DNA from: an uncultured Gammaproteobacteria bacterium
GTDB taxonomy: Bacteria > Pseudomonadota > Gammaproteobacteria > Pseudomonadales > Halieaceae
DNA: 47,472 nucleotides
Assembly (NCBI GenBank): GCA_902519405.1
Contig: CABYJX010000011.1
Coordinates: forward strand, 1-47,472
Direction of reading: 5' to 3'
Shown here: positions 19,405 to 33,718 of the stretch, one piece after another
Numbering within the stretch: position 1 is the first letter of the stretch
How the letters are laid out: each line of letters begins with the position of its first letter
Notes under the pieces: generated by a model
Database searches by the model: none
What the model was told of the DNA's origin: nothing
Seen by the model: the letters and a program-made list of their open reading frames with translations, nothing else
Position numbers and translations under genes: made by a program

Positions 19405-19500
19405 TTAATCCTCGATAGAGTAGACTAACTCCTCGAAAATCGTTTCCTTGATCTCGATCGTTTTAAGTTCGGAAGGGTCATCTTCCCCACCTCGATACAT
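19405..19500 (-). CDS. Possible 31-residue acidic protein at the end of the envelope cluster
   Basis: An ATG overlaps the TAA stop of the M48 gene by one base (TAATG) and opens a frame ending at TAA 19405-19407. It encodes an acidic, helix-prone peptide beginning MYRGGEDDPSELK and ending VYSIED. The overlap is typical of translational coupling, and the frame fills the otherwise empty gap before the convergent hydrolase gene. No signal peptide or membrane segment is present and I know no family for it. At this length a chance ORF is a real possibility. Confidence 0.4.
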   Translation of the reverse strand: MYRGGEDDPSELKTIEIKETIFEELVYSIED

Positions 19501-20894
19501 TAGGGCCTGATTACCTTGAACCAATCTCCGGTCCTAGGCTCTCCTCGAGGATATATCCCATTAATTAATCTGTGGGTGGCTTCAGCTTCTGGGATGGGAC
19601 TTTTCGCTGCCAGACTTCCAACAGTCTGACCACGAGGTACTCGAATATACCTAACATATAAAGGAGGACCAGTAATCTGCTCTGCCTCAGTCATCGAGCG
19701 AAAGCTCTTAATTATTTTCAGTAGCGTTGGATCATTTTTCTTGATGTCTGTAGCGGTTCCTTCAAACAAATAGGAATAATTTTGATCGATCACTGCTATA
19801 CGCTTGGTCAGATGTTTGTCGGAGATTAGAGCGGTATAACCTTGCAGACCAAACTGTTGGAGACTTTCCTCACTGGATAATTTTCCAGTTGAAAGTTTCT
19901 TTAATGTCTCCTCGGGTTTGATCAAGACATCACGTTTTCGAAGCATTATTCGAAGCACTGCCCCATCTTTGACAGATTCAGCGATCACAGCACCAGAGGT
20001 TTCACTGATACTCCATCCGTCTGGCAGTTCTATCGTAAAGCCAAGACTATTATGGTAATAACGCTGATCTTTACGCTTGCTACTTGCATGATCACCCCAA
20101 GGAAGTTCCTGCATATATTTTCGAAAATCTGTAGTTACATCATTGATCAAAAGTGCTTCATCGGTCTCGACCCGTTTTACAGACTTAATAATTTCTTTTA
20201 GTCTTCGATCGCTACGCGGATGGCTCGCATAAAGCCCATGGTAACTAGCAGGCTTATTGCCAGATAGGCGCTGATGCATCTCAAGATACTTCATAGTCGA
20301 AAGTGCATCGATTATTGCTTCCACATCGTAGCCATTTTTTGCAATATAATTTGCCCCCAGCCGATCAGCCTCCAGTTCACGATTTCGTCCAAAGCTTGCC
20401 CCAACCTCAGCACCGTACATCTGTGCCGCACTAGCCAGATCTCCACTACCAGTTAATATTAATGTTCCAAAGCTCGCGATCTTTTGTATTAGGTTAGAAG
20501 TAGTGCCCTCAGAATGGTGATTAGCGGTAACATGAGCAATCTCGTGACCCACTATTCCTGCTAGTTCAGCTTCAGAATTCAGATAATTAAGAAGCCCTCG
20601 ATTAACGTATATATAACCACCGGGCATAGCAAAGGCATTTATGGTTCCGTCGTCAACGATCCTAAACGTAAAGGATTCTATCCTTTTATAACCACTACTT
20701 GCGACTAGCTTATTGCCTATTTTATCTAAGTATCTTTGTAGTTCAGGGTCTTCATAAAAAAGCCCATTTTTCTCCATTTCCTCAAATTTTTCCTTACCGA
20801 TTTCTTTTAAACCTGATTCAACATTAATCGAGAAGACAGCTAATGCCATAACCGAAATAATTGATAAGACTGATTTGTTTTCACTAAAAGCCAA
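19500..20894 (-). CDS. M48-family metalloprotease, exported
   Basis: A 464-residue peptidase with an N-terminal hydrophobic segment (about 9-26) acting as signal peptide or anchor. The gluzincin motif HEIAH is at 117-121 and the third zinc ligand is expected at E173 in ELEAD. The layout resembles BepA-like envelope proteases that process outer-membrane proteins, with an extra C-terminal half (about 270-464) of unknown role ending in GDWFKVIRP. The start is a TTG with AGGA about 13 bases upstream, 3 bases after the previous stop. It is the last large gene of the minus-strand envelope cluster, so it may process or quality-control the cluster's lipoproteins or outer-membrane partners. Confidence 0.86.
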   Translation of the reverse strand: MAFSENKSVLSIISVMALAVFSINVESGLKEIGKEKFEEMEKNGLFYEDPELQRYLDKIGNKLVASSGYKRIESFTFRIVDDGTINAFAMPGGYIYVNRGLLNYLNSEAELAGIVGHEIAHVTANHHSEGTTSNLIQKIASFGTLILTGSGDLASAAQMYGAEVGASFGRNRELEADRLGANYIAKNGYDVEAIIDALSTMKYLEMHQRLSGNKPASYHGLYASHPRSDRRLKEIIKSVKRVETDEALLINDVTTDFRKYMQELPWGDHASSKRKDQRYYHNSLGFTIELPDGWSISETSGAVIAESVKDGAVLRIMLRKRDVLIKPEETLKKLSTGKLSSEESLQQFGLQGYTALISDKHLTKRIAVIDQNYSYLFEGTATDIKKNDPTLLKIIKSFRSMTEAEQITGPPLYVRYIRVPRGQTVGSLAAKSPIPEAEATHRLINGIYPRGEPRTGDWFKVIRP

Positions 20895-20897
20895 GAC

Positions 20898-21548
20898 TTA
20901 GAATTTTCCTGATAAAAACTCGAGAAGTTGATCGCCGATCCCATCACATGCGGCACCCTTGACCGGTGCGTGTATCGGGAGTGGTATGAATATTGATGGC
21001 ATATAGGTTTGACCGCTGCTCTCTGTATTGACCTTCCCTACTTCTGCAAGTGCAGTAAAATCCCAGATAGTTGCTTCATAGTTAGCCTCGTTTCCCCAGG
21101 TCGCAAATCCGAAGCAGCCATGCAAACTGCAAGATAGACTCCCATCACTCCCCGTATTCTTAGTACTGCCATCTATCCAAATCATATAAGCAAGGTCAAG
21201 AGATTCAAGTTTCTGCAGCAATACTCGTTCTTGAGCGAAGCGCTGAAGGTTTTCCGGTTCGAGTGGCGCTGTTCTTGGCTCAAACCATGGATATAGATTA
21301 TCTAAAAAATAACTTTCAGGGATTATTGTTATTGTCGGATCTTTCCTCATGATGTGGGAGCCCACGCACTGCACAAAATCCGGTTCGGTAGCATAATCAC
21401 TACCATGTCGGCGGCCTAGAATTACTGCTGTGTCCTCACCAATACCAATTTGTGGCTCGTTAAATACCATTTCATCGACTCTTGACGTGACACAGCCACC
21501 TAAAATATTGATCGATAGGAGTAAGGGCATCAATATTCTAATATTCAT
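20898..21548 (-). CDS. Lipoprotein of unknown function (envelope cluster)
   Basis: A 216-residue predicted lipoprotein; the signal peptide ends in NILGGC (lipidated C19). The mature protein carries further cysteines, including CSLHGC and a late AACDG, which could form disulfides. I recognise no family. The sequence looks like a compact alpha/beta periplasmic domain with a glycine-rich central segment. Its ATG overlaps the stop of the upstream lipoprotein gene (ATGA, 4 bases), and 3 bases separate its stop from the M48 gene, so it is firmly part of the operon. Confidence 0.7.
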   Translation of the reverse strand: MNIRILMPLLLSINILGGCVTSRVDEMVFNEPQIGIGEDTAVILGRRHGSDYATEPDFVQCVGSHIMRKDPTITIIPESYFLDNLYPWFEPRTAPLEPENLQRFAQERVLLQKLESLDLAYMIWIDGSTKNTGSDGSLSCSLHGCFGFATWGNEANYEATIWDFTALAEVGKVNTESSGQTYMPSIFIPLPIHAPVKGAACDGIGDQLLEFLSGKF

Positions 21549-22258
21549 TGGCTTACCTCATTAGACTTCGGTTGTGAAAATGTGTTCTCTTCTGAGTCAC
21601 TTTCTTGAGAAGTTAGCCCCTCTAACCAAAGAGAAACAGGCTCGGTACGTCGAAAAGTTGTGACAAAGTGCGCACCTGCGTCCCTTAGAGCCATGATAGC
21701 GGCTAAATTAATTGCATCTTCTTTTGATTGACCGCCTTCAATACCCATCACAAGGTTCTGTGGGGTTTTTCCATAAGCGGTCATTTCCCAATCACCAAGT
21801 GGCTCGCCTAGGACGTTGACTAACTCGAACCGATAGCGCATCCAGATTTCATAAACCTTTACCTGCGTGTGTGAGGGTATGGCATATTGAAGCTCCTCGA
21901 TATGCGGAATAATGACCATGCTCACCGTTTTTGCCGGGCTCTCCCGGGAAGGTCTTTCCGAAAGGGTAAGTGTCTCTGAAAAAACTCCAGAAAAAATCAT
22001 ATCCCAAAGCTTTATCTGCGCTTCCCCAGTCTTGATGTGCCAGTCAGATTGACCCCTAGACTTTGCCTCATCGAAAATTTCGTGCGACTTGAATTCGGCT
22101 TCATAATAAACACCCACTGTTTGATTAATTTTTTCTGTCAATGGTGTAGGGAATTCTCCTTGGACAACTACTTGCTTACTCCCGCAGCTTGACAAGAACA
22201 AACTTGTCAGGACAACTAGGTAAGGTATCAAATTTCTACAAACCGACAAAAGCGCCAT
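21545..22258 (-). CDS. Lipoprotein of unknown function (envelope cluster)
   Basis: A 237-residue predicted lipoprotein with lipobox LFLSSC (C25). The mature part has segments such as QVKVYEIWMRYRFEL and GDWEMTAYGKTP, suggestive of an alternating beta-strand fold seen in periplasmic lipoproteins that dock on transporters or secretin-type complexes; this is an impression, not a domain match. The last 25 residues are polar and probably disordered. The start lies 23 bases inside the upstream vWA gene, and the stop overlaps the next lipoprotein gene, indicating translational coupling on both sides. Confidence 0.68.
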   Translation of the reverse strand: MALLSVCRNLIPYLVVLTSLFLSSCGSKQVVVQGEFPTPLTEKINQTVGVYYEAEFKSHEIFDEAKSRGQSDWHIKTGEAQIKLWDMIFSGVFSETLTLSERPSRESPAKTVSMVIIPHIEELQYAIPSHTQVKVYEIWMRYRFELVNVLGEPLGDWEMTAYGKTPQNLVMGIEGGQSKEDAINLAAIMALRDAGAHFVTTFRRTEPVSLWLEGLTSQESDSEENTFSQPKSNEVSQ

Positions 22259-23234
22259 CGTTAAGTCCTGTTAGTGGTCGAGCAAGTCTTGCGAAGCACT
22301 CTGACATAAGACGTCCCTCGGGACCGCCATAAGTACGCATACCGATAGCGTTTATTTTGGTTATTTTTATGCCATCTATCCCTTTGCGATTTCTTTTGGT
22401 TATTCCTCTTACTAGTGATGTTGGATTCTGACATTTTGAAATCCCCGCCCGGAAATCATCTCCTATGAGGAAAATGCTACCCGGAAAATCTGTTTTGTCG
22501 ATGAGATCAACAGCTTTAATCAGCCCTTTTGTAGGATTTGACGCATCTGAGGGAAAGCTCTCAAGTCTTTGTTTTATTTTACTTCTATTCACCTGGGAAT
22601 CCTCAATCCAGCCTATCGTCTCAAAAATCAATTGATTCCCATCTGAATCAAAGACCTGCATTCCTCTAGTCTGGGGATGGGCGTCAAGTATCGAAGCAAT
22701 GACTCCAGAGAGCGAGCCATCTTCTTTCCTTGGATTCATTGAACCTGAGAGGTCTACGACAAAAATAATGTAAGGCCTATCAGCATGTATACCTATTACC
22801 AGCTCATTTCTATTATCAGCTATATTTTTAAGTAGATCTTCCTCTAATGTAGTTAGTTCCTCAAGTCGTTGACGCAGCTTTTTATGATTCTCTACAGCTT
22901 GAATATCACTAGTTTTGGGAATTAGTCGACTTGTGCTCTTCAATTTCCCTAAAAGAATATTTTTTGTTTGTTTTAGCTCCAATCTAACCTCAGAGAGAGA
23001 ATCAACTTTCAACTCGGTACGTTGATTGCTAGTCTCTAACTTTAGAAAGGCTTGTTTGAGTTCAATAAGTTCGTTTCGCAAATTCGTAACTAAGGAGTCT
23101 AAGATTTGCGACTCAGCTGTCTTAGTGATCATGAGAAGGAGTATTACTGCGCCAAAACCACAACAAATGACATCTAGAAAAGATACCGAGAATTCTTCTG
23201 GCGTGCGTCTTCTGCTTTTTCGACTTCTAGACAT
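22236..23234 (-). CDS. Membrane-anchored von Willebrand A protein 1 with ExbD/MotB-like N-terminus
   Basis: A 332-residue protein with three parts: a very basic cytoplasmic N-terminus (1-12), one membrane helix (about 15-37) with the motif SFLDVICCGFGAV including Asp21, a coiled-coil stretch (about 40-145), and a von Willebrand A domain (about 153-330). The MIDAS metal motif is DLSGS (D161, S163, S165). By topology the vWA domain lies in the periplasm. A basic tail, one helix with a single Asp, then a periplasmic domain is the architecture of MotB, ExbD and TolR, but with vWA in place of a peptidoglycan- or TonB-interacting domain. A MotA/ExbB-type gene is three genes upstream. The short membrane motif is shared with the second vWA gene. 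Function is unknown. Confidence 0.8.
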   Translation of the reverse strand: MSRSRKSRRRTPEEFSVSFLDVICCGFGAVILLLMITKTAESQILDSLVTNLRNELIELKQAFLKLETSNQRTELKVDSLSEVRLELKQTKNILLGKLKSTSRLIPKTSDIQAVENHKKLRQRLEELTTLEEDLLKNIADNRNELVIGIHADRPYIIFVVDLSGSMNPRKEDGSLSGVIASILDAHPQTRGMQVFDSDGNQLIFETIGWIEDSQVNRSKIKQRLESFPSDASNPTKGLIKAVDLIDKTDFPGSIFLIGDDFRAGISKCQNPTSLVRGITKRNRKGIDGIKITKINAIGMRTYGGPEGRLMSECFARLARPLTGLNDGAFVGL

Positions 23235-23302
23235 CGTTGGGTATCGTCCATGACTGGTTTAATGATTCTTTTTCGGCATCTTCAGCATATGCATAATCCT
23301 CT

Positions 23303-24403
23303 TCAGTATTTTGACCTCCCCCAATTGCGCTCAGGGGCAATGAAACATCCTCCCTTCTCTACCGCTAACTTCCAAAACAGGTAGCTAGCTTTTACGTCTC
23401 CCTCAAAGGGTAGAAGTATTACGTTTAGCGAAGCGAGATCTGGCATGTCTTTTTGTGCTGCTAGGAAATACTTATAGCGATCACTCACAGAAACCTTTTC
23501 ATACCTATCGGAATTTCCTTTCTGATTGGGTAACCCATCCGTGATTATCCAGATAGAATCAGGAACTGGATCCAATTTTTGCAGTGACAGCATGGCATTT
23601 TGTAAATTAGTACCTCCGTGAGGGATGATCGTCTCTATATTTGAGGCTACCACTTCCAATTCAGGCTGATTCTTTGCTTCCAGCCAAGTATCTTCCGTAT
23701 TATCTTTAATTGCTTTGATTTCATCATTAAATATGTATGCTTGATATTTTGTTTGGGTAGAAAAGCTACCTAGGATCCACTGAAGGGATTTAACTGCGGA
23801 GCGCCATTTTGGTGCCTTTAACTGGACACCGTCTATTTCATTCTGAAGTGCATAGACATCAGGAACTGTCGTTTCAAGCATACTGGCGGAGATATCCATT
23901 ACGATAGCGACATGGGAGCCCATCAATTTACATCCACTTAATCGTTGTCTTCCGCCACTGCCCGTAAAATTAAGTGGACTCTCATCTTGCAAGGCTCTAC
24001 TTTTGCTTTCCAGAGTGTTTAAACTTGCTTCTATTTGGATAATTTGTTGGTTAAGACTGGCCAAGTCTTGTTGATTAGGTACTTTTTTAACCGGTTGTGC
24101 ATTCAAAGTGTCCAGAGCAGATAAATCTGATTTAAGTGATTCAATTGATTTCTCTAGGTGCATAATTTCGCTGTTCAATTCGAGGGTTTTTGAATCGAGC
24201 GTTTTGGAACGTTCATTTTCCTTTTCGATGCTAGATTTTAATAGATCCACTTCCAATTGCGACACTTGATTAGAATTAAGAACATCCTCCTTGATGCTAT
24301 GATCAATAATCATGAAAACCAAAACCACCGCCCCAAAACCGCAGGACATAATATCTAGAAAGCTCAGACTGAAAGTAGTAAAGGTGCGATTTTTTCGGGC
24401 CAC
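23303..24403 (-). CDS. Membrane-anchored von Willebrand A protein 2 (probable 3' frameshift)
   Basis: A 366-residue paralogue of the neighbouring vWA protein. It has a basic N-terminus, a membrane helix (about 11-34) with SFLDIMSCGFGAV and Asp17, a long coiled coil (about 45-140) and a vWA domain (about 163-360) with MIDAS DISAS (D170, S172, S174), a downstream GGTN and an ITDG site. Start is a GTG, 3 bases after the preceding stop. The frame ends at 23303, leaving a 68-base gap unlike the rest of this packed operon. Removing one base near the GGGGG run at about 23318-23322 opens a frame that continues with an acidic 20-30-residue tail and stops at 23227, overlapping the next start. So the annotated C-terminus may be wrong or genuinely truncated. 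Confidence 0.8.
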   Translation of the reverse strand: MARKNRTFTTFSLSFLDIMSCGFGAVVLVFMIIDHSIKEDVLNSNQVSQLEVDLLKSSIEKENERSKTLDSKTLELNSEIMHLEKSIESLKSDLSALDTLNAQPVKKVPNQQDLASLNQQIIQIEASLNTLESKSRALQDESPLNFTGSGGRQRLSGCKLMGSHVAIVMDISASMLETTVPDVYALQNEIDGVQLKAPKWRSAVKSLQWILGSFSTQTKYQAYIFNDEIKAIKDNTEDTWLEAKNQPELEVVASNIETIIPHGGTNLQNAMLSLQKLDPVPDSIWIITDGLPNQKGNSDRYEKVSVSDRYKYFLAAQKDMPDLASLNVILLPFEGDVKASYLFWKLAVEKGGCFIAPERNWGRSKY

Positions 24404-24406
24404 AGC

Positions 24407-25633
24407 CTAACTCTCCGACCTAAGGTGTATTAAAACGACCGCTTCGTCATGGAATTGAAGTCGATCGCCTGGTACGAGGGCTCGCCTGGAAATCGGAATA
24501 GAATTACAGGTTAGCTGATCCGCGGGTGAAGCAAACCAATCTTCTTTAATGCAATGCAGTCGAATATTATCGGATATGATTCCGTCTCCCAGAGGATGGG
24601 CAGTGCAATGCTCATCTAGCCAGTGGGTGGGACGTATTTTTCTCGGCAGTTTTTTGCCAATAGTTTTGGAGATTTTTTCTACCGGAGCTGGGGTAGTGGG
24701 TACCGCTTTGATGAGTCTAAGCGAGTTTGGGTCAAGTTTGATTGAGTTTATTAGACATGGTCGTAAATTATCGCTCGAAATGATGTTTGGTATTTGATTG
24801 ATCCCTGGTAGGGTGCCTGCGGGTGTTTCCAGAAGTACGGGCCTTTGATCTAGGTCTTGATGTATCCCTCTCATCCTAATAATTAGTTCATCCGTAATGT
24901 GCTTCACGTCCGCTGAACAAAGCCGTGCTACATGTCCTTGTATTTCACAGCTTGCCTCATCATGTTCAAAGAGTTCCCTAATTATTTTAGGCGTCTGGTC
25001 GTATAACAGTTGGTCGGTGTACGCCTGCTTTCTAGGATCAAAACGAGTTTGACTAATAAAGTTGGCAGCGACTACCGACGCGTAGCGCTCTTTTAAGTGA
25101 AGCAAGCCCATGCCAGGAATCACACTGGAACCAGCAACTGAAAATGAATCGTCACAATAGTTTAATTCAACGATCATCGCCTGATGTAGCTGCAGCTCCA
25201 GATGTAACATAGGGGTGCGAGCGGATACACTTGCTGCCAGAAGAGGACTTCTATGGATTATTCCTAGCGCCATGAATGGACACTGCTCAATGATACCGAG
25301 TAAAAGAGAGAGTTGTTCTTTGCTCATGCTTCCTGAGACGGCAAGCGCGATCTGATTTGATTCAGGTGCACTTTGATAAAGCGATAGCAGGTGCTGATGC
25401 ACCAGATCCGCCGTATGTCTAGCGGGACCAAAAGAAAGTTGAAGCGGCTCTGTACCCAATTGCCACCAAAATTTATTATTAACCTTCCTAGGTTGGGTTC
25501 GGTATTTTTTCTCAGCGGCTTTACCAAATACAAACTCGTTTTCACTATTGAAGACGAAGCCATTACTGTGCATTACCTTTTCTTCATAAAGCAATCTGAT
25601 TGACGTATCCAAAAGATCAAGGACTGTGGCCAC
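24407..25633 (-). CDS. Divergent actin/Hsp70-fold-like protein with possible FHA-like C-terminus
   Basis: A 408-residue soluble protein with no signal peptide or membrane segment. The start is GTG, 5 bases after the channel gene. Residues 1-240 show a pattern like the actin/Hsp70 ATPase fold: an N-terminal strand pair, then QIALAVSGSMSKEQLSLLL followed by a helix and a second strand with LGIIHRSPLLAAS, and a later HLELQLHQAMIVEL strand pair. The usual phosphate-binding glycines are not clear, so it may not hydrolyse ATP. Residues about 340-404 contain ISRRALVPGDRLQF, reminiscent of the end of an FHA domain. Both assignments are tentative pattern readings. As the only large cytoplasmic protein of the cluster, it could be the control or energising component. 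Confidence 0.6.
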   Translation of the reverse strand: MATVLDLLDTSIRLLYEEKVMHSNGFVFNSENEFVFGKAAEKKYRTQPRKVNNKFWWQLGTEPLQLSFGPARHTADLVHQHLLSLYQSAPESNQIALAVSGSMSKEQLSLLLGIIEQCPFMALGIIHRSPLLAASVSARTPMLHLELQLHQAMIVELNYCDDSFSVAGSSVIPGMGLLHLKERYASVVAANFISQTRFDPRKQAYTDQLLYDQTPKIIRELFEHDEASCEIQGHVARLCSADVKHITDELIIRMRGIHQDLDQRPVLLETPAGTLPGINQIPNIISSDNLRPCLINSIKLDPNSLRLIKAVPTTPAPVEKISKTIGKKLPRKIRPTHWLDEHCTAHPLGDGIISDNIRLHCIKEDWFASPADQLTCNSIPISRRALVPGDRLQFHDEAVVLIHLRSES

Positions 25634-25638
25634 AATAG

Positions 25639-26436
25639 TTACTCGTTAGCGAGATGTCTAAGGAGTTGCTGGTCAGCACATCGCTGGCAGTCAAGCACCA
25701 GTCTCTCCTGTGAGAGCTGAAGCTGGTGTAAGCAAAACATTATGATAATACTTAGTATCAGCGCGACAAAGGTACTATTAAATGCCACGCCAAGGCTCGC
25801 GGTTACTCCGGAGATATCTCCTTCTACGGCCTTGTAGGCTTGACCTAAGGCTTCTCCAATTCCCCTCACGGTGCCAATAAATCCAATTGATGGAATTGCC
25901 CATGCAATGTATCGCACCATGGAAAGTTCCGAATCAAGTCTTTCTGCTTCGATATCGCATTGCTCCTTGATGGTATCGGACACGGATTGGACACTTCCTG
26001 TAGTACTAAAGCGTTGTAAAGCCGACAGGAGAGTTCTTACAAGAAGAAATTTCTGTTCTGAATTAGGCAGACCTTCTAACGCTCTGCTATACTCACGTGC
26101 ATCTACAGGAAGTACACTCATCCCCTCGGGTATATCTAACAGTGGCGTATTGGCCATATTTCGTTCAAAAAATGTCTGTCTGCCTTTGAAAGCCATAATT
26201 GCTAGGGCCCAAAGCATTAATATAAGGCATGCCTCTTGTTCAAAATCCCTCACGACAACTGCGAGGCTTCTATTCGGCACTACCTGCTCACCGGCGGCCA
26301 TGAGTGATGCCTGTTGCTGAAGTTCAGCATTGGCGGTGGGGCGTATTATTCCGACATAGGAGCCGTGGACTAAAATGATGATAGTTAAGAGTGCGATTAC
26401 TTGATAGATAAACTCAGAAGATAGCGTCTGCTTCAT
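25639..26436 (-). CDS. MotA/TolQ/ExbB-family proton channel protein
   Basis: A 265-residue inner-membrane protein with four predicted helices (about 9-29, 66-86, 172-194, 212-237) and a large cytoplasmic loop between helices 2 and 3. The final two helices carry the family core: IPSIGFIGTVRGIGEAL, then GVTASLGVAFNSTFVALILSI. In ExbB, TolQ and MotA this forms a pentameric channel around two B-subunit helices that carry an ion-binding aspartate. No ExbD/TolR/MotB gene is in the window, but the two downstream vWA proteins have suitable single helices with one Asp each. Four helices is MotA-like; ExbB and TolQ have three. ATG start with AAGGA nearby. Confidence 0.88.
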   Translation of the reverse strand: MKQTLSSEFIYQVIALLTIIILVHGSYVGIIRPTANAELQQQASLMAAGEQVVPNRSLAVVVRDFEQEACLILMLWALAIMAFKGRQTFFERNMANTPLLDIPEGMSVLPVDAREYSRALEGLPNSEQKFLLVRTLLSALQRFSTTGSVQSVSDTIKEQCDIEAERLDSELSMVRYIAWAIPSIGFIGTVRGIGEALGQAYKAVEGDISGVTASLGVAFNSTFVALILSIIIMFCLHQLQLSQERLVLDCQRCADQQLLRHLANE

Positions 26437-26489
26437 GGTAAATTCCTTTTATAGTTATCCTTTAAGGTAAGGCCTATGATATTCAATGA

Positions 26490-28553
26490 TCATTCGGCAT
26501 AACGCGCTATTCGAAATCCTACGTCATCGCGACCCATTTGCCCATAATCACGAGCGGAGAGGCGCAGGTCAGAAAGTTTGCTGTGTGACCAACTTGCGCC
26601 GCGAATGACTCGATTGTCACCATCCTGTATTCCCAAAGGATCAATTAAGGGGTTTCCGACAAGGCCTGCTATTTGATAAACATCGTGTATCCATTCAGAG
26701 ACATTGCCGTCAAGGTCATAAAGCTTCCGATGGTTTGCAGGAAAAGAACCCACAGGCGCGCTAACGACGAAGTTGTCGGTGTACCCATTGATTACCCTTC
26801 CATTAATATATGCTGACGCATCATCGGCAAAATTCCTTTTCCCGGAGGGTGGAGGAAAAGTATTGCCCCACGAGAAGCGCATGATCTTATCTCCCCAGAC
26901 GCGTGTTGCCCATGCCCATTCAGCTTCCGTCGGCAGGCGGTATCCCCTAGACTCAGGATTGTGTCCAGTAATCAACCCTTCCGTTTCAATATAAAATTGT
27001 GGGAGTTGTTCCTTTCTACTTAGCCAATTGCAGTACTGCGCCGCTTGTTGCCAATTGACTCGCACCACAGGTTGCTGCTCGCGATTCAAAGAGGCGCCTC
27101 GAATCTGCCCAGAATTGTGATCAGGTTCAAATAAGCGAAACTGGGCATTGGTGACTTCTTTGTTCTGCATATAAAACAGACGTTCTAGTCTGACCGTTCG
27201 CATTACTTCGTCTGCTCGGCGGCCTGGTTCTGAGCGGGGTGCACCCATCTTGAATTGACTGTTAGCCTTACTCTGAGGATTAAAAAGTATCAGCGTTTGA
27301 TTGGTTAAGGTGGTTTCAATTGGTTTTAAATGAGCTACCCGTGCTTGTGCAGTCGTCAGCAGGTTGACGTCTATGCTCAAAGGAAAATCTGGGACTGGGG
27401 TCACTATTTGTGTATTACTTGCATAGCCTTGCCGACGTATTTCTATTCGTTGAGGTGTTGCTGGAAGTAACAGGGTAGTATTTCCCGATCCCCTCGATTT
27501 CCCATTAATGATTAATTCGGCAGTTTTGGGTTTGAGATTAAAATGAAGTTCTCCGTAGCGCGGCTGGAGCAATACTCTAAGGGCTTTTCGCTCACCTGGA
27601 CTGAGTTTTATTTCTTTCGATTCTCGTTTATACCCGGGTAGGGAAACAGAAATTCGATGAACGTCATTTGGAGAGATTTCAATTTCTAAGGGTGATGGCC
27701 CTAAAAAATTTCCATCCAGCGACACGTTTGCGGCCACAGGGCTGGTCTTTAGCTCAATGACACCGGAAGCAGGGACTAGATCAAGCATGCCAAGATTCTT
27801 TGGTTCTCCAGCGACAGTCTCCAGATCGATTTGAAGAGGTGCATAGCCAGGTAACTTTAATACGATTTGATGAGATCCTGCTGGTACGAGGACCGTTGTA
27901 GGTGTTATGCCGAGTCTCTCTCCATCTAGTTTCACCTCAGCGCCCTGAGGAGTACTGCCCAACGTTATATCGGCCCAACCAGGTTGCATCTCTAAAATAA
28001 ATTGCTGTTTAACAGATCTCCCCTTGATCTCTATCTTTTCTTTAAAATCGAGATATTTATTATGTGATAGAGTGAGGTCATACTCCCCCGCCTCTAGGAT
28101 AAGTTCCATTTTTGGTGTGGCACCTTTTGAAATCCCATTAAGACTAATCGCGGCGCCCACCGGTTTGGATTCTATAGTTACTATACCTGGGAGTATGGAT
28201 AGAGAGAGTTGAACGAGCTGATTTGATTCTGATCCCACATTTAGCGTTGTTTGCAAAGGTTCATATCCTTCCGCAGAAATCTGCATTGGATAATTCCCTT
28301 CGCGTATTAGAAACCTATTTCCAATCGGAATGGCAAGTCCACTTATTTCGATTTTTGGTTTAGAAATGGTATCGGTCTGAATTTGAATTGATCTGGCAGT
28401 CAGAAGAAAGCTTAAACAAATTAAGAATACGAAAAACCCTATCCAGAGAAGCCACCTAGCTGACATCTTTTGATCTTCGCTGCTCGATTGCTCGCCATCT
28501 AGTGATTTAAAATCAGCAGGCTGAATAATATCTTCAGAATCATTTTCTGACAT
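26490..28553 (-). CDS. Single-pass protein with five PEGA-like repeats and an FGE/SUMF1-fold domain
   Basis: About 687 residues using the ATG at 28553 (MSENDSED), which overlaps the preceding stop as TGATG and has AGAGG upstream; an in-frame ATG 18 bases earlier is less likely. Order: cytoplasmic tail, membrane helix (about 34-53), five tandem PEGA-like beta domains (about 67-122, 124-189, 193-260, 264-330, 334-397), each with a core such as GAEVKLDGERLG, then a formylglycine-generating-enzyme-fold domain (about 424-685) with YRLPTEAEWAWA, LYDLDGNVSEW and RVIRGASW. The catalytic cysteine pair of true FGE is absent (GASWSHSKLSD), so a binding or structural role is more likely than enzymatic activity. 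The domains should be periplasmic. PEGA domains are often found in surface and secretion-associated proteins. Confidence 0.85.
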   Translation of the reverse strand: MSENDSEDIIQPADFKSLDGEQSSSEDQKMSARWLLWIGFFVFLICLSFLLTARSIQIQTDTISKPKIEISGLAIPIGNRFLIREGNYPMQISAEGYEPLQTTLNVGSESNQLVQLSLSILPGIVTIESKPVGAAISLNGISKGATPKMELILEAGEYDLTLSHNKYLDFKEKIEIKGRSVKQQFILEMQPGWADITLGSTPQGAEVKLDGERLGITPTTVLVPAGSHQIVLKLPGYAPLQIDLETVAGEPKNLGMLDLVPASGVIELKTSPVAANVSLDGNFLGPSPLEIEISPNDVHRISVSLPGYKRESKEIKLSPGERKALRVLLQPRYGELHFNLKPKTAELIINGKSRGSGNTTLLLPATPQRIEIRRQGYASNTQIVTPVPDFPLSIDVNLLTTAQARVAHLKPIETTLTNQTLILFNPQSKANSQFKMGAPRSEPGRRADEVMRTVRLERLFYMQNKEVTNAQFRLFEPDHNSGQIRGASLNREQQPVVRVNWQQAAQYCNWLSRKEQLPQFYIETEGLITGHNPESRGYRLPTEAEWAWATRVWGDKIMRFSWGNTFPPPSGKRNFADDASAYINGRVINGYTDNFVVSAPVGSFPANHRKLYDLDGNVSEWIHDVYQIAGLVGNPLIDPLGIQDGDNRVIRGASWSHSKLSDLRLSARDYGQMGRDDVGFRIARYAE

Positions 28554-30076
28554 CAAATGGCCTCTTTGCATTTGATATTAATCTTTAAGGGAATTAGGTC
28601 TTTGGAGACATCGAATGAAATTCGAATGTCTCGGTATCCGTCTCTAAATCCTGCAGCAGTATAACTTCCCGGGCGCAGTAGTAATTCTCGTGAATCGAAC
28701 CTTCCCAGCTCGGCAATCTTATAGAGCGTGATGTTGGTTAGACCATCAGAGACAAATTTTACGGGTAGCTTTGTATTTGCTTCTTCAAGTAGAGTCGCCA
28801 CAGTGCTTATTTGATCTCTAAGGCGTGGCCCCGGTCTAGGGATTTGTTTTGCAGTCGCAAGTGTCTTATCCGCCTCCTGAGCTACTTTGCTAATCTTTAA
28901 CTTTTCAGGATCTTCAATAAAGCCACTGAGTTTTTGATCTAATGCCCTTCTTGGTGAAACCCGAGCCAGTCCTTGGTTAGCAAATAGGAGATTCTTATCT
29001 TTCTTTAATGCTTCCGAGAATCGCTTCTCTGCTCCGATCCAATTTTCTTGACTTTCCAGAACAGCAGATTCTTGGCGAAGTACAAATAGCCTATTTCGCA
29101 TCTCCGATTCTTTTAACTCGGTTATCGCTGAAAGAACTTCTTTGGAGAGTGGGTCGAGTGTTTTTGCCTGCGTAAAGTGTTGGCGAGCCGGAGGTAGATT
29201 ATTTTTTTCAAGTGCTTGATAGCCTAAGCTCATTGCCGTATCGAATAGGCTTTTGGTCAGCTTGATCTGGGAGGTTTCTAGTGCGCCCAGTATAAGAGGG
29301 TGCTCAGGATCCAGTTGCTCGGCTTCCTGCAGTTTTGAAACCGCTTGCTCCAGTCGCCCTTGCCGCTCTAGCAATTGACTAGATTCGAGTGCGGCGAGTA
29401 TTAGCGGCAAGGCCTTCATTCGAAGATCTATTTCTGTTAATCGTGAGTTGGCAGGATCTAAAAGTGATGCTTGGGAATATAGATCTTCACTTTTCTGAAT
29501 GTCACCATCATCGATGGATAGTCTAAGATCTGACAAAATCTTTTCAAATCTCTCGGGCACAGAGGCTTCTAAGGCAAGTAGCATATCCCGAGCCTTCTCG
29601 TACTCGACAGCCGCCAGTCCATACTCCTTCGCTCGATAAGCCTTATCGGCGTTTAATGCGATTAGTCCGGCGCTATCTATTGTATCTGGTGCCCAAGTCG
29701 CTGCACCCACTTTTTTAAGTCTTGATTTAATTTCGGCGGCTTCTGCTGTAAGTTCCAGCGCATTCTGCTTCGACTTTTTAAGTGCTGCGTCAGCCCAAGG
29801 TGAAGCGGTATCTTGAGCTTCTTGCAATGCCACCCTACTGTTAATCCGGATGTTGGTGGCTTTAGTAGTATCCGCCAGTGGTAATACGACATTTTGGTCT
29901 TGAGATATCAGTGACGGCAACCAAAGAATCACGAAAAGAACGATGCAAGCCAGTCCGGAGATCAAGCAGATTAACCGACGTGAGAGTTTTCCCTCTCCTA
30001 CGGTCGGATTTGATTTATCTTCCCCAAGTGAGGCTTTAAATGGTGTGGGTGTCAAAATATCGTTATAGTCAGGCAT
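28553..30076 (-). CDS. Single-pass TPR protein with PEGA-like C-terminus (envelope cluster)
   Basis: A 507-residue protein: cytoplasmic tail (1-33), one membrane helix (about 34-57), a helical region (about 70-400) with several TPR-like units such as AVSKLQEAEQLDPEHPLI and ARQHFTQAKTLDPLSKEV, and a C-terminal beta domain (about 438-505) with ELLLRPGSYTAAGFRDGYR that resembles a PEGA domain. The helical domain should be periplasmic. The cytoplasmic tail motif NDILTPTPFK matches EDIIQPADFK in the next protein, which suggests a shared docking site. The stop overlaps the next gene's start by one base (TGATG). The start is ATG, 22 bases after the upstream gene. Function is unknown; probably a scaffold. 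Confidence 0.78.
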   Translation of the reverse strand: MPDYNDILTPTPFKASLGEDKSNPTVGEGKLSRRLICLISGLACIVLFVILWLPSLISQDQNVVLPLADTTKATNIRINSRVALQEAQDTASPWADAALKKSKQNALELTAEAAEIKSRLKKVGAATWAPDTIDSAGLIALNADKAYRAKEYGLAAVEYEKARDMLLALEASVPERFEKILSDLRLSIDDGDIQKSEDLYSQASLLDPANSRLTEIDLRMKALPLILAALESSQLLERQGRLEQAVSKLQEAEQLDPEHPLILGALETSQIKLTKSLFDTAMSLGYQALEKNNLPPARQHFTQAKTLDPLSKEVLSAITELKESEMRNRLFVLRQESAVLESQENWIGAEKRFSEALKKDKNLLFANQGLARVSPRRALDQKLSGFIEDPEKLKISKVAQEADKTLATAKQIPRPGPRLRDQISTVATLLEEANTKLPVKFVSDGLTNITLYKIAELGRFDSRELLLRPGSYTAAGFRDGYRDIRISFDVSKDLIPLKINIKCKEAI

Positions 30077-30098
30077 TGGGACCTCTCAACAGGTTCGT

Positions 30099-31349
30099 CT
30101 ATTGAGCTTCAGCACCGATCAATTGACCACCTGAAATTTCAGGTGGGGAGGGAGCTAGAGGGCTCTCCCCAACGTTAATATGGGGAATCTCGGTCTCGGC
30201 CCTATAAATTTCAGCTAAAATCTGACGCCACTGGGCATATTGCTCTTCTACGGTTCCTGTGAGCAAAGTAGTTTTATCCTCTAGCTGGATCAGTCGTGGA
30301 GTGATTTTTGCATCAAGCAGTAGCCCCATTTCTTCTAGCCGTCCAATATGGATTTGAGCTTGGTTTCGAAGTTCTAACCCACTTTTCACAAGGTAACCGC
30401 CGCCCATAACGGCCGTCGCTCCCGCAATGCGGGTACTTCGATCGTCACTGGTACTTGCGGCAAGCCCAGCTGCCACCGACAAGCCGCCCGCAATAAGTCT
30501 TGCTCTATATTCCCTCTGCTCTTCCCTGAGTGCCAGCGTCGAATCAAGATTCTCATTTCGCCATTGTTGATAGCCGTCATGCATTTCCTGCGAGAAGTTT
30601 GAGTAGTAGTCCTGAAGCGTATCAACGTAGATAAAATCTCTTTCACGCACCGTACGAACACGCTCCAGCATCGGGTCGTTTTCAGCAGGTAGCCGGATCA
30701 TTTTAATCGAGCCACTAGGAGTTTCTTGCAAATGTCCACCAAAAGCATCGGGAGAAAAGCTTTGTGCAAAGGTCAGCTCCGTGATTTTTCTTAAGTTAGT
30801 ACGATCCTTCTCAGGCAGTGTACTTAGAATGGTAGTGAGATCATTTGCAATATTATTGTATACAGCTTGGAATGGATCGTACTGGCTGCGAGTTGTCGCC
30901 TCATATGCGTAGAGGCTGACTCGTGTTTCGTAATTTTTGTTTAGCCAAATCTGATTCCTAGAATCAGCCACCCGGATCTTTAAATTCAGACGCTCCCCAT
31001 CTGAATGTACTATTTTTCCGTCCACGGTAAGGTCTGTGATTGTATCTGAGTTAGGAACGACCCTCACCGCTGCCCAAGCACCTGTTTCCTGCAGCGCCTC
31101 AGCGAGCCTTAGTGACATGTAGGCCGCTTCAGCTTTTCGAAGCTCCGGATAGATAGGAACGTCATCAGACTCTTCGTCCTCCAGTCCAGGATCGAAGACA
31201 GGAATAGCTACATCCAGTAACTGAGATTCGGGTGCAGGTGTCACGACGACGTTAAGTGCCGGAATCTTAGTAGTTTTGACCGTTTCAGTTACACATCCTG
31301 ATAGGAAAGCGATAAAAATACAGGGCAAAAGGCTATGGCGCATAATCAT
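30099..31349 (-). CDS. Large lipoprotein with glycine-zipper segment (envelope cluster)
   Basis: A 416-residue predicted lipoprotein with lipobox AFLSGC (C19). Residues about 45-175 form an alpha/beta domain in which VDGKIVHSDGERLNLKIRV and ALQETGAWAAVRVVP resemble periplasmic domains that sense or bind. Residues about 285-327 are unusual: a hydrophobic, glycine-rich stretch (AGGLSVAAGLAA, then AGATAVMGGGYLV) like a glycine zipper, which in other lipoproteins inserts into the outer membrane. The C-terminus is polar and proline-rich. The ATG overlaps the stop of the Ser-Ser-Gly lipoprotein gene by 4 bases (ATGA). I recognise no named family. Confidence 0.74.
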   Translation of the reverse strand: MIMRHSLLPCIFIAFLSGCVTETVKTTKIPALNVVVTPAPESQLLDVAIPVFDPGLEDEESDDVPIYPELRKAEAAYMSLRLAEALQETGAWAAVRVVPNSDTITDLTVDGKIVHSDGERLNLKIRVADSRNQIWLNKNYETRVSLYAYEATTRSQYDPFQAVYNNIANDLTTILSTLPEKDRTNLRKITELTFAQSFSPDAFGGHLQETPSGSIKMIRLPAENDPMLERVRTVRERDFIYVDTLQDYYSNFSQEMHDGYQQWRNENLDSTLALREEQREYRARLIAGGLSVAAGLAASTSDDRSTRIAGATAVMGGGYLVKSGLELRNQAQIHIGRLEEMGLLLDAKITPRLIQLEDKTTLLTGTVEEQYAQWRQILAEIYRAETEIPHINVGESPLAPSPPEISGGQLIGAEAQ

Positions 31350-32416
31350 TTTTTGATCCCCATATATTTACGATATCGATCCCAAAGTGCTTCGCGTTTA
31401 ACTGAGTCAGATTCTCTCTCGGCACGCTCACGAAGCTGCCGGGCAGTAACATCTTCATCCTTTGAGTTATCTTGAATATCCTCTGGAACAGGATACTTTT
31501 CAGCCTTATCTCTCTTTGAGGGCGCGACACTCACCACTTTCCGCAATTCTCCAGTCCTTGGATCTATTGAATCCAAACCATCCGTAGGCATCGCATTTTG
31601 GGGGGATTGTTCGATGTTGGTATCGGATTTTTCCAAGGGTGATTTTGTTTTATCTCTCTGCTGTCCTGTACGCGCTTCAGCAATTGCCTGATCAAATTTT
31701 CCTGCCGAAGAATTTAGTTCAGCATCTAAAATCGCAATTTTTTCAGCGGTGGTTAAATCACCTCTATCGGTTATTTCCGAGATATCATCGTCATTAGTTG
31801 TTCTTTCAATTGAGTCGCCTCGTTTTGATGTTTGGTTTGAATCATTGGATGGATAGCGGGAAGACTGGTTTCTCTCGTAGGGGTTGCTAGTCGAACTAGA
31901 GGCTGTTGCAGGTAAATCCCTCATATCAGGCAGTTCGTCTGTTTGAGATAATTCTCCAAAACCAGGACCTGCTGTTTTAATAGATCTTCCCGTATTAGGA
32001 GATTCTTGTGTGATCTTGGGGGACGTTTTTGAGTTCCCTAAATCCCCTGTTGGAGCTGTTGAGACACCCTCGCTTTCAGGTAAATTGTTTCCTGAAGAAC
32101 CTGAAGAACCTGAAGAACCTGAAGAACCTGAAGAACCTGAAGAACCTGAAGAACCTGAAGAACCTGAAGAACCTGAAGAACCTGAAGAAGAGTCTTGGTC
32201 TTTTGTCGAGCTTGTAGAGGGTGTGCTGGTACTCGAACCAGCACCTGTCTTACCCCCGCTGTTTCCTCCGGCAGAGGGATTGGGTAGAGGCATGGGAAGC
32301 GAGACCGACACTCCTGAATTCGATGGCGTAGATGTGGGTAACGACACGCATCCGGTCGTTAAGGATAATACTACAATGGCTATCCACCATTTTTTAGGAT
32401 CTCTTTTCGCTACCAT
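31346..32416 (-). CDS. Low-complexity lipoprotein with (Ser-Ser-Gly)11 tract (envelope cluster)
   Basis: A 356-residue predicted lipoprotein; the signal peptide ends in LTTGC (C23). Nearly the entire mature protein is polar, rich in Ser, Gly, Pro, Thr, Asp and Lys and probably disordered, including an exact (SSG)11 run at about residues 77-109. The C-terminal third is charged and helix-prone (TARQLRERAERES). The design suggests a flexible tether or spacer spanning the periplasm. The reading frame is open through the repeat, and an antisense frame with EEP repeats is a shadow. The start at 32416 has AAGGGTGATG upstream. It lies 84 bases after the first cluster gene, the longest gap between these genes, so an internal promoter is possible. 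Confidence 0.78.
   Translation of the reverse strand: MVAKRDPKKWWIAIVVLSLTTGCVSLPTSTPSNSGVSVSLPMPLPNPSAGGNSGGKTGAGSSTSTPSTSSTKDQDSSSGSSGSSGSSGSSGSSGSSGSSGSSGSSGSSGNNLPESEGVSTAPTGDLGNSKTSPKITQESPNTGRSIKTAGPGFGELSQTDELPDMRDLPATASSSTSNPYERNQSSRYPSNDSNQTSKRGDSIERTTNDDDISEITDRGDLTTAEKIAILDAELNSSAGKFDQAIAEARTGQQRDKTKSPLEKSDTNIEQSPQNAMPTDGLDSIDPRTGELRKVVSVAPSKRDKAEKYPVPEDIQDNSKDEDVTARQLRERAERESDSVKREALWDRYRKYMGIKK
32091..32189 (-). repeat. Perfect tandem repeat, 11 copies of a 9-base unit
   Basis: Eleven identical copies of CCTGAAGAA (plus strand), read on the minus strand as codons TCT-TCA-GGT for Ser-Ser-Gly. The copies are identical at every base including third positions, so the array expanded recently, probably by slippage. 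Because the unit is a multiple of three, copy-number change would alter protein length without breaking the frame. Confidence 0.97.
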
Positions 32417-32500
32417 TTCATCACCCTTGGAGTAATCACGATATAAGTCAGGATAGCAATGTGCGGTGAAGAAAACCGTAAACTATTGTAAAGATAATTC

Positions 32501-33718
32501 TCACCAGGAACTTGTATCGAACCCATAAGTAATTCCTTCAGCAATTACTACTTCACCAAACTCTAGCTGAGGTCTGAAACGCGTCTTACTGATTAGACGG
32601 ATAATTTTTCTCGCAACAGCATCCTCAGTATCAGAATCATCCACGCGTTTTACATTGATGGCGCGTCCGGTTTTGGTTATATCAAAGCTGATAAGAAGAT
32701 CTGCCGATTCTTGAGCCACGGTATCCGGTAGTGGTTTAAATCCATCAAGCTGAGGCAGTGGAAGAGGGACTGGAAAGATTTCAGCTGGAACCTGGGATTC
32801 TTCTGAATCCTCAATCGTTTTAGCCAAACCAGCTCGGGTTGCTTCCATATAGGTTCGTTTCGCATCGCCGCGCTTGCCATTCCAGAGCATCCAGTCTGCA
32901 AGCATTGTCAGACTATTTTGCGTAGTCTGAACAGAATTTTTTGAAGATTTTTTCTCCAAATCATAGATCGCTGAGATGATATATCTTCCCTGTTTGTAAT
33001 TTTGGGAGCGATAGGCTCGGGCGCCGTCATTATCGAATCGAGATAAGCTTCTCTCGTATACCCCCAACGACTTACTTATTAATCCGGTTAACAGGTATTG
33101 GGTTCGTAATATTCCATGTAAAGGTTCAAGGAGTGCCGGAGATTGGTCCCCTAGCTCTTCTGCGAGACGGCTCAATGCGCGGCGATAAAGGTTTAGCATG
33201 TCTATCAGGCGAAAAAGTTTTTCGTCGTCATCTTTGGTAATACCTAGTTGATATGCCTTGTTCTGCCACTCAGCGTGTTTAATCAAACCGCGTGCGATCG
33301 TCTCGTTATCAACCAAGCTTCTAGCTTGAACTTGTCTGAGATAGGTTTGCCGGATATCGACTTCTTCAAATAAGTTAAGATACATCAGACTTTCAATCTC
33401 AGATTCGATAATTGGAATTTGCAGTGAACTATAGAGTCCACTGTTGACTCTAATCATATGAGTCGCTTGTCGGAGAGTGTCTACAGCTTTTTCATGCTCA
33501 TCACTACGTTGTTGCGCGAGCCCGAGATTGTAGAGAGTTTCTGCGAGATTATTTGAATAAGCACCCTGGGGGAGTCTTTTAGACGTCGTGGTAATCGATA
33601 CCTCAGGTGTAGCAAGCTCGTTTGCCGATACCATACTTGTCGCAGGCAAGAAAGCTGCGAGGATTGCCAATAGTACTCCCTTTAATTGAATTCTATGAAT
33701 GATCTGTCTGCGCTGCAT
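32501..33718 (-). CDS. Periplasmic TPR protein with TonB-C-like end, first gene of envelope cluster
   Basis: A 405-residue exported protein with a signal peptide (about 1-32, ending SMVSA). The middle (about 50-310) is helical with TPR-like units such as AETLYNLGLAQQRSDEHEKAVDTL. The C-terminal 70 residues (DLLISFDITKTGRAINVKRVD..., ending in EGITYGFDTSSW) follow the TonB C-terminal domain pattern, in which a V/I-x-F-x-I-x-x-x-G-x strand leads to an ARKIIRLISKTRFRPQ helix-strand. Such domains contact outer-membrane or partner proteins. No membrane anchor is predicted after signal cleavage, unlike TonB. It is the first gene of the minus-strand block, divergent from the thioesterase gene. Confidence 0.75.
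   Translation of the reverse strand: MQRRQIIHRIQLKGVLLAILAAFLPATSMVSANELATPEVSITTTSKRLPQGAYSNNLAETLYNLGLAQQRSDEHEKAVDTLRQATHMIRVNSGLYSSLQIPIIESEIESLMYLNLFEEVDIRQTYLRQVQARSLVDNETIARGLIKHAEWQNKAYQLGITKDDDEKLFRLIDMLNLYRRALSRLAEELGDQSPALLEPLHGILRTQYLLTGLISKSLGVYERSLSRFDNDGARAYRSQNYKQGRYIISAIYDLEKKSSKNSVQTTQNSLTMLADWMLWNGKRGDAKRTYMEATRAGLAKTIEDSEESQVPAEIFPVPLPLPQLDGFKPLPDTVAQESADLLISFDITKTGRAINVKRVDDSDTEDAVARKIIRLISKTRFRPQLEFGEVVIAEGITYGFDTSSW

Follow-up and report, generated by a model that had tools for sequence, protein, structure and literature searches.

A conserved envelope gene module of Halieaceae with a TolQ-type channel and two vWA proteins, read as a putative ion-driven machine

Flagella, gliding, secretion, nutrient import, and the upkeep of the outer membrane are all powered by rotary 5:2 motors. 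In a stretch of DNA of 47,472 nucleotides, called the window in this study, an earlier note described a run of tightly packed envelope genes around an ExbB-type channel and two membrane-anchored vWA proteins. This locus raises the question of whether the genes form one machine, what would drive it, and which parts of it have already been described.

Twelve genes in a conserved order

The block consisted of 12 genes, named P01 to P12 in transcription order, on the minus strand at 19500-33718 (Table 1). The 12 ORFs lay where the earlier note had placed them, but the block ended at 19500 and not at 19405. Adjacent genes overlapped by 4-23 bases or were separated by gaps of 3-84 bases, and the flanking genes (a thioesterase, a gamma-glutamyltranspeptidase, and a metallo-beta-lactamase-fold hydrolase) were all ordinary. 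The assignments of the channel (MotA/ExbB, E 7e-15), the PEGA-FGE protein (PEGA, 5e-50; FGE, 7e-38), and the M48 protease (1e-32) were supported by Pfam, and the lipoboxes of the four proposed lipoproteins were visible. P01 was an exported TPR protein as proposed, but its TonB-C match was weak and below the cut-off, and it was rejected as a strong TonB-C protein. P02 contained a long Ser/Ser/Gly repeat. The antisense frame at 32010-32435, which reads as a Glu-Glu-Pro repeat, is probably a spurious ORF.

Table 1. Genes of the block and the junction downstream of P05, in transcription order
Feature	Position	Strand	Description
P01	32501..33718	-	exported TPR protein, weak TonB-C/AgmX-like C-terminus; accessory; found at order level
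P02	31346..32416	-	Ser/Gly-rich lipoprotein, lipobox LTTGC; low-complexity; core gene
P03	30099..31349	-	lipoprotein, LSGC; CsgG/PelC/TolB-N/FlgT-like domain; core gene
P04	28553..30076	-	inner-membrane single-pass TPR protein; cytoplasmic tail; core gene
P05	26490..28571	-	single-pass protein; PEGA repeats and FGE fold; cytoplasmic motif IIQPADF; core gene
Junction, 53 nt	26437..26489	-	encodes, in related genomes, a small exported protein with the ending ...ISEDLSVSFPVDI; missing here and in the window's genus
P06	25639..26436	-	MotA/TolQ/ExbB channel, invariant T189 and T222; core gene
P07	24407..25633	-	cytoplasmic; predicted Hsp70 nucleotide-binding-domain fold, altered phosphate loops, FHA-like C-terminus
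P08 (vWA1)	23303..24403	-	N-terminal helix SFLDIMSCGFGAVVL, invariant D17, then linker and vWA domain; MIDAS residues D170/S172/S174/T265/D289
P09 (vWA2)	22236..23234	-	helix SFLDVICCGFGAVILL, invariant D21, vWA domain; strongly diverged in the window's genus
P10	21545..22258	-	lipoprotein, LSSC; accessory
P11	20898..21548	-	lipoprotein, LGGC; accessory
P12	19500..20894	-	exported M48 metalloprotease; accessory

The close relatives of the window were uncultured Halieaceae. In most of 20 genomes drawn from the family and the order, the 12 genes were arranged identically; a few of these loci had single genes missing or broken, or reached a contig end. We then considered 63 further loci with full flanks. 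These had been retrieved via the channel or vWA1, so that co-occurrence was tested by the remaining genes only. The earlier note had put forward co-occurrence of the channel, the two vWA genes, and the PEGA-FGE gene as a check, and a lack of it in other genomes as a refutation. This refutation fails: together with the TPR gene and two lipoprotein genes, they co-occurred in 61-63 of the 63 loci (P04, P05, and P09 in all 63; P02 and the channel in 62; P03 in 61). P07 was present in 57 loci and P12 in 40, and P01, P10, and P11 were each present in 52. The core P02-P03-P04-P05-channel-(P07)-vWA1-vWA2 extended to other orders of the class and to one family outside it. Pairwise distances of the core genes correlated (r 0.70-0.95), which fits genes that are inherited together. 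Because the same gene order was kept in most of 20 genomes and the core in the 63 full-flank loci, the block is a real and discrete module, far beyond chance, as had been claimed from its ordinary neighbors.

Of 369 genomes sampled across the class, about 30 had a full-length vWA1. vWA2 was found in 126 of 140 genomes of the window's family, and in 76 of the 78 near-complete ones. Two family genomes that were more than 90% complete (G801 and G706) had no vWA2 match, by either loss or an assembly gap. The module was rearranged in one family (L201, L221, and L205) to the order P05, tail gene, P07, vWA1, vWA2, channel, and the channel was last in L201 and L221.

A small exported protein and the divergent vWA heads

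The tail gene is a small ORF that follows P05 and precedes the next core gene (loci L034-L131 and L191-L222). It had about 50-150 codons, with a median of 89 counted from the first Met. Its product combined a low-complexity stretch with either a signal peptide or a membrane helix, and its C-terminus was close to SEEISEDLSVSFPVDI. A script detected it in 113 of 122 junctions, and in six of the nine misses it was visible on inspection. It was truly absent only at L032, L033, and L052, which represent the window's genus and have junctions of 53-56 bases. L033 and L052 are one contig; L052 is also the same contig as G002:C26, and its channel shared 95% identity with the window's channel. Where P07 and not the channel came next (L201 and L221), the small gene stayed with P05. 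The codons for FPVDI varied between genomes, so the constraint acts on the protein. Relocation of the gene is unlikely, as a search for the exact pattern terminated by a stop codon gave no match in G000, G001, and G002, which are only 60-88% complete.

The FPVDI ending occurred once per genome, in the module, with the exception of one extra match in G033, in which a reversed-pattern control likewise gave one match. It was therefore rejected as a general sorting tag. We found no literature on a small exported protein ending in ...SFPVDI, and this small partner protein, lost by the window's genus, appears to be new.

The same genus differed in its two vWA proteins. Its vWA1 and vWA2 had 36% and 32% identity to the family counterparts, against 71% and 79% among the counterparts themselves, and no comparable excess was found for the other ten block genes. 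The tree-distance ratios were 3.6 for vWA1 and 7.5 for vWA2 versus 1.4-2.0 for the other ten. The helix residues were kept in the genus (17 of 18 in vWA1 and 15 of 15 in vWA2), as were the MIDAS residues. Changes affected 27 of 75 otherwise invariant vWA-domain residues in vWA1 and 33 of 69 in vWA2, the latter including several of the SNSSPVEG loop. Since dN/dS within the genus was about 0.1, ongoing decay of the vWA genes was rejected, the heads are functional, and most of the excess divergence lies on the stem. The vWA1 of the sister genomes (L032:12907-14079) was about 25 residues longer than that of the window.

Loss of the small gene and remodeling of exactly the two vWA heads coincided as a single event in one genus. 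This coincidence suggests that the vWA heads bind, or once bound, the FPVDI tail as a ligand. An alternative explanation, less favored but plausible, is that both vWA genes were replaced by xenologs from an unsampled lineage, in an event unrelated to the loss of the tail gene. The dS values between the window and its sister genomes (L032/L033) were about 1.0-1.6 for P08-P12 and 0.5-0.8 for P03-P07, and dS between L032 and L033 was lower in P08-P11 (window 19500-24403 against L032/L033); these patterns hint at tracts of recombination within the module. The low dN/dS within the genus also fits a replacement. However, P10-P12 were not anomalous, the window's vWA1 and vWA2 were far from every sampled lineage (best identity 39% and 33%), and the divergent vWA2 occurred in just one genus of 28 examined. 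Even a donor that lacked the tail would still tie the tail to the heads.

The channel and the paired vWA helices

P06 had a strong Pfam match as a channel; its match to TolQ structures was weak (E 0.38). In a profile alignment, T189 and T222 of P06, both invariant, aligned with the threonines of GTVWG and IATA in solved TolQ, which we take to line the TolQ pore. Both vWA proteins start with one helix of the form SFLDxxxCG[FL]GA with an invariant Asp (D17 in vWA1, D21 in vWA2). This helix was the most conserved part of either protein, and the two helices were homologous to each other (hhalign probability 99.7). The Pfam vWA matches of the two proteins did not reach the curated cut-off (E 0.007 and 0.018). 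The MIDAS residues were nevertheless conserved across the family, which upholds the earlier assignment of two vWA proteins. When profiles of vWA1, vWA2, P03, and P07 were searched against the sequences of solved structures, only coiled-coil or marginal matches were obtained. We also compared the vWA helix with ExbD; homology was undetectable (probability <5). From their position and the Asp, the N-terminal helices of vWA1 and vWA2 are likely the equivalents of ExbD/TolR, a point that the earlier note had missed.

It has been predicted that TolQ-like channels adjoined by vWA pairs are 5:2 motors of unassigned function, in which vWA helices replace TolR/ExbD (PMC12204202, June 2025). Because this paper proposes vWA pairs rotating inside TolQ-like pentamers, the core of channel and paired vWA proteins has already been described computationally and is not new. 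The locus shares with its TolQ + TPH-vWA class (Mol Biol Evol 2025, Fig. 4c-d) a TolQ-type gene beside a heterologous vWA pair, the absence of a tolR/exbD/motB-like gene from the cluster, the conserved Asp in the vWA helix of both, and the conserved channel Thr. The earlier note had matched the set to no characterised system, and had named as a refutation that the whole set be already described under another name. The first statement fails for the core, for which the refutation holds; no description of the remaining genes was found. For the vWA class, the text of PMC12204202 does not contain the wider gene set, the small FPVDI protein, P07, or the docking motif described below, nor does it contain the anomalous vWA divergence of the window's genus. 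The wider conserved gene set therefore appears new relative to the channel-vWA core.

These comparisons point to a trans-envelope machine that is driven by an ion gradient and has two different vWA proteins as its rotor, a reading that we favor with moderate confidence. P06 would form a pentamer of the TolQ/ExbB type. One helix each of vWA1 and vWA2, whose residues and pairing were observed, would lie in the pore and carry the ion-accepting Asp. The heteropair would thus replace the ExbD/TolR dimer as rotor, with a rotation and stoichiometry like those proposed in PMC12204202, and its motion would be passed on to the periplasmic vWA heads. The earlier note had proposed that an ion-driven motor may sit at the center and that the products range from the cytoplasm through the inner membrane and periplasm to, probably, the outer membrane; both points are supported.

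The vWA proteins might instead not be rotors. They could bind outside the channel ring in the manner of TolA/TonB, or act as a static scaffold, while an unlinked ExbD/TolR completes the motor. The relatives had 1-8 ExbD/TolR genes, on other contigs or tens of kb from the cluster, and other copies of the channel family were likewise present elsewhere in their genomes; the undetectable homology of the vWA helix to ExbD also agrees with this explanation. We nevertheless consider it unlikely. No match to PF02472 (ExbD/TolR) was found among the block proteins, and the SFLD...CGFGA helix with its Asp was kept even where the heads diverged. According to PMC12204202, AF3 models place the vWA helix of the TolQ + TPH-vWA class in the pore, and the SHLS motif seen in transducers that bind at the side is missing from this class.

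Other known systems resembled the block in part. Tol-Pal/Ton uses the same channel family, and P03 has a fold of the TolB N-terminal type, but Pfam gave no match to TolA/TonB, TolR/ExbD, the TolB propeller, or Pal in the block. The T9SS (GldKLMN/PorKLMN) likewise combines a PMF-driven motor with a repurposed envelope protein of FGE fold (PMC12421860). In contrast to the T9SS, P05 is a single-pass inner-membrane protein with PEGA repeats and not a lipoprotein, and the block holds no known translocon. P05 matched the GldK model (5e-27) with 95 bits against a cut-off of 350, the FGE fold itself being present, and ten block proteins gave no match to GldL/GldM.

The cytoplasmic protein P07 and the proposed machine

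P07 had no Pfam match above the cut-off, and it was structure prediction alone that confirmed the earlier proposal of an actin/Hsp70-like protein. Its AlphaFold model (mean pLDDT 93) matched Hsp70 nucleotide-binding domains with Z 25 over 299 residues. Read by eye from alignments, the first phosphate loop was D-x-x-D with an invariant D9, and ELQLHQ replaced DLGGGT in the second phosphate region. Since these Gly-rich phosphate loops are altered, ATPase activity is not expected, and the ATPase function of P07 has probably been lost. Profiles of its C-terminus matched FHA domains only, and both matches were weak.

We found a motif, [IVL]x[PA]xx[FY], in the cytoplasmic tails of P05. Among loci with P07, 90 of 90 distinct tails carried it, where shuffling of the tails gave an expectation of about 4; among loci without P07, the count was 0 of 11. 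The motif was less complete in the P04 tail (52 of 81 with P07, 0 of 11 without). The pattern was written after inspecting the tails, and the P07-less loci fall in few clades. Because the motif co-varies with the presence of P07, binding of the tails by P07 is the simplest reading, suggesting that P07 may dock on the tails of P05 and P04 in a PilM-like manner. PilM is reported to bind the short cytoplasmic part of PilN (PMC4471445), and in PilM-PilN/GspL, too, a cytoplasmic protein of actin/Hsp70 fold binds the short tail of a single-pass protein, as predicted here for P07. P07 differs from PilM in its resemblance to the Hsp70 nucleotide-binding domain, its altered phosphate loops, and its FHA-like C-terminus, and the tails here are those of a PEGA-FGE and a TPR protein. 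This putative cytoplasmic docking part appears to be new.

The predicted fold of P03 (mean pLDDT 84) resembled CsgG/PelC/TolB-N/FlgT at residues ~37-185 (Z about 8-12). This fold, common to CsgG, PelC, TraT, and FlgT, was confined to the first half of P03; a C-terminal half of long helices, which hold a Gly/Ala-rich hairpin, is added. The FGE domain of P05 had no conserved Cys near its C-terminal GASW segment and is therefore probably non-catalytic, as is the FGE fold that was repurposed in the T9SS ring (PMC12421860).

In the proposed machine, P07 would dock on the cytoplasmic tails of P04 and P05, two single-pass partners, as PilM does on PilN, and P03, from its predicted fold, would likely be an outer-membrane ring or receptor. 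The small exported protein with its invariant C-terminal ...FPVDI would be part of the set in nearly all relatives. The task of the machine could be, for example, to pull on the outer membrane or to export a surface product.

The block could also be a sensing or signaling device, in which channel and vWA proteins form a gated sensor, P07 is the cytoplasmic reader, and no force is produced. P07 does resemble a binding module rather than an ATPase, and no known motor track or translocon is present in the block. However, the block contains no kinase, phosphatase, or regulator, and some lineages without P07 keep the channel and the vWA pair, so we regard such a device as quite improbable. A Zorya-type antiphage defense system is hardly tenable, since beyond a channel of MotA/ExbB type and marginal PADLOC ZorA matches (E 0.004 and 0.013) the block gave no match to the nuclease, the helicase, or OmpA-type ZorB, and it is near-universal in the family with correlated divergence, whereas defense genes are patchy.

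We therefore return to the ion-driven machine with a mixed vWA rotor. In its most specific form, which is tentative, the mixed vWA heads, turned by the channel, would grip the FPVDI tail at their MIDAS face, while a dead Hsp70-fold clamp would organize the inner-membrane partners; in the window's genus the ligand would have been dropped and the heads rebuilt. Three parts are directly testable, namely the rotor aspartates, the 16-residue tail as a ligand of the vWA heads, and the short motif as the dock of the Hsp70-fold clamp. If true, the loss of the tail and the rebuilt heads in this genus would be a natural experiment that identifies both ligand and receptor, and the block would be another rotary 5:2 motor, nearly universal in one marine bacterial family.
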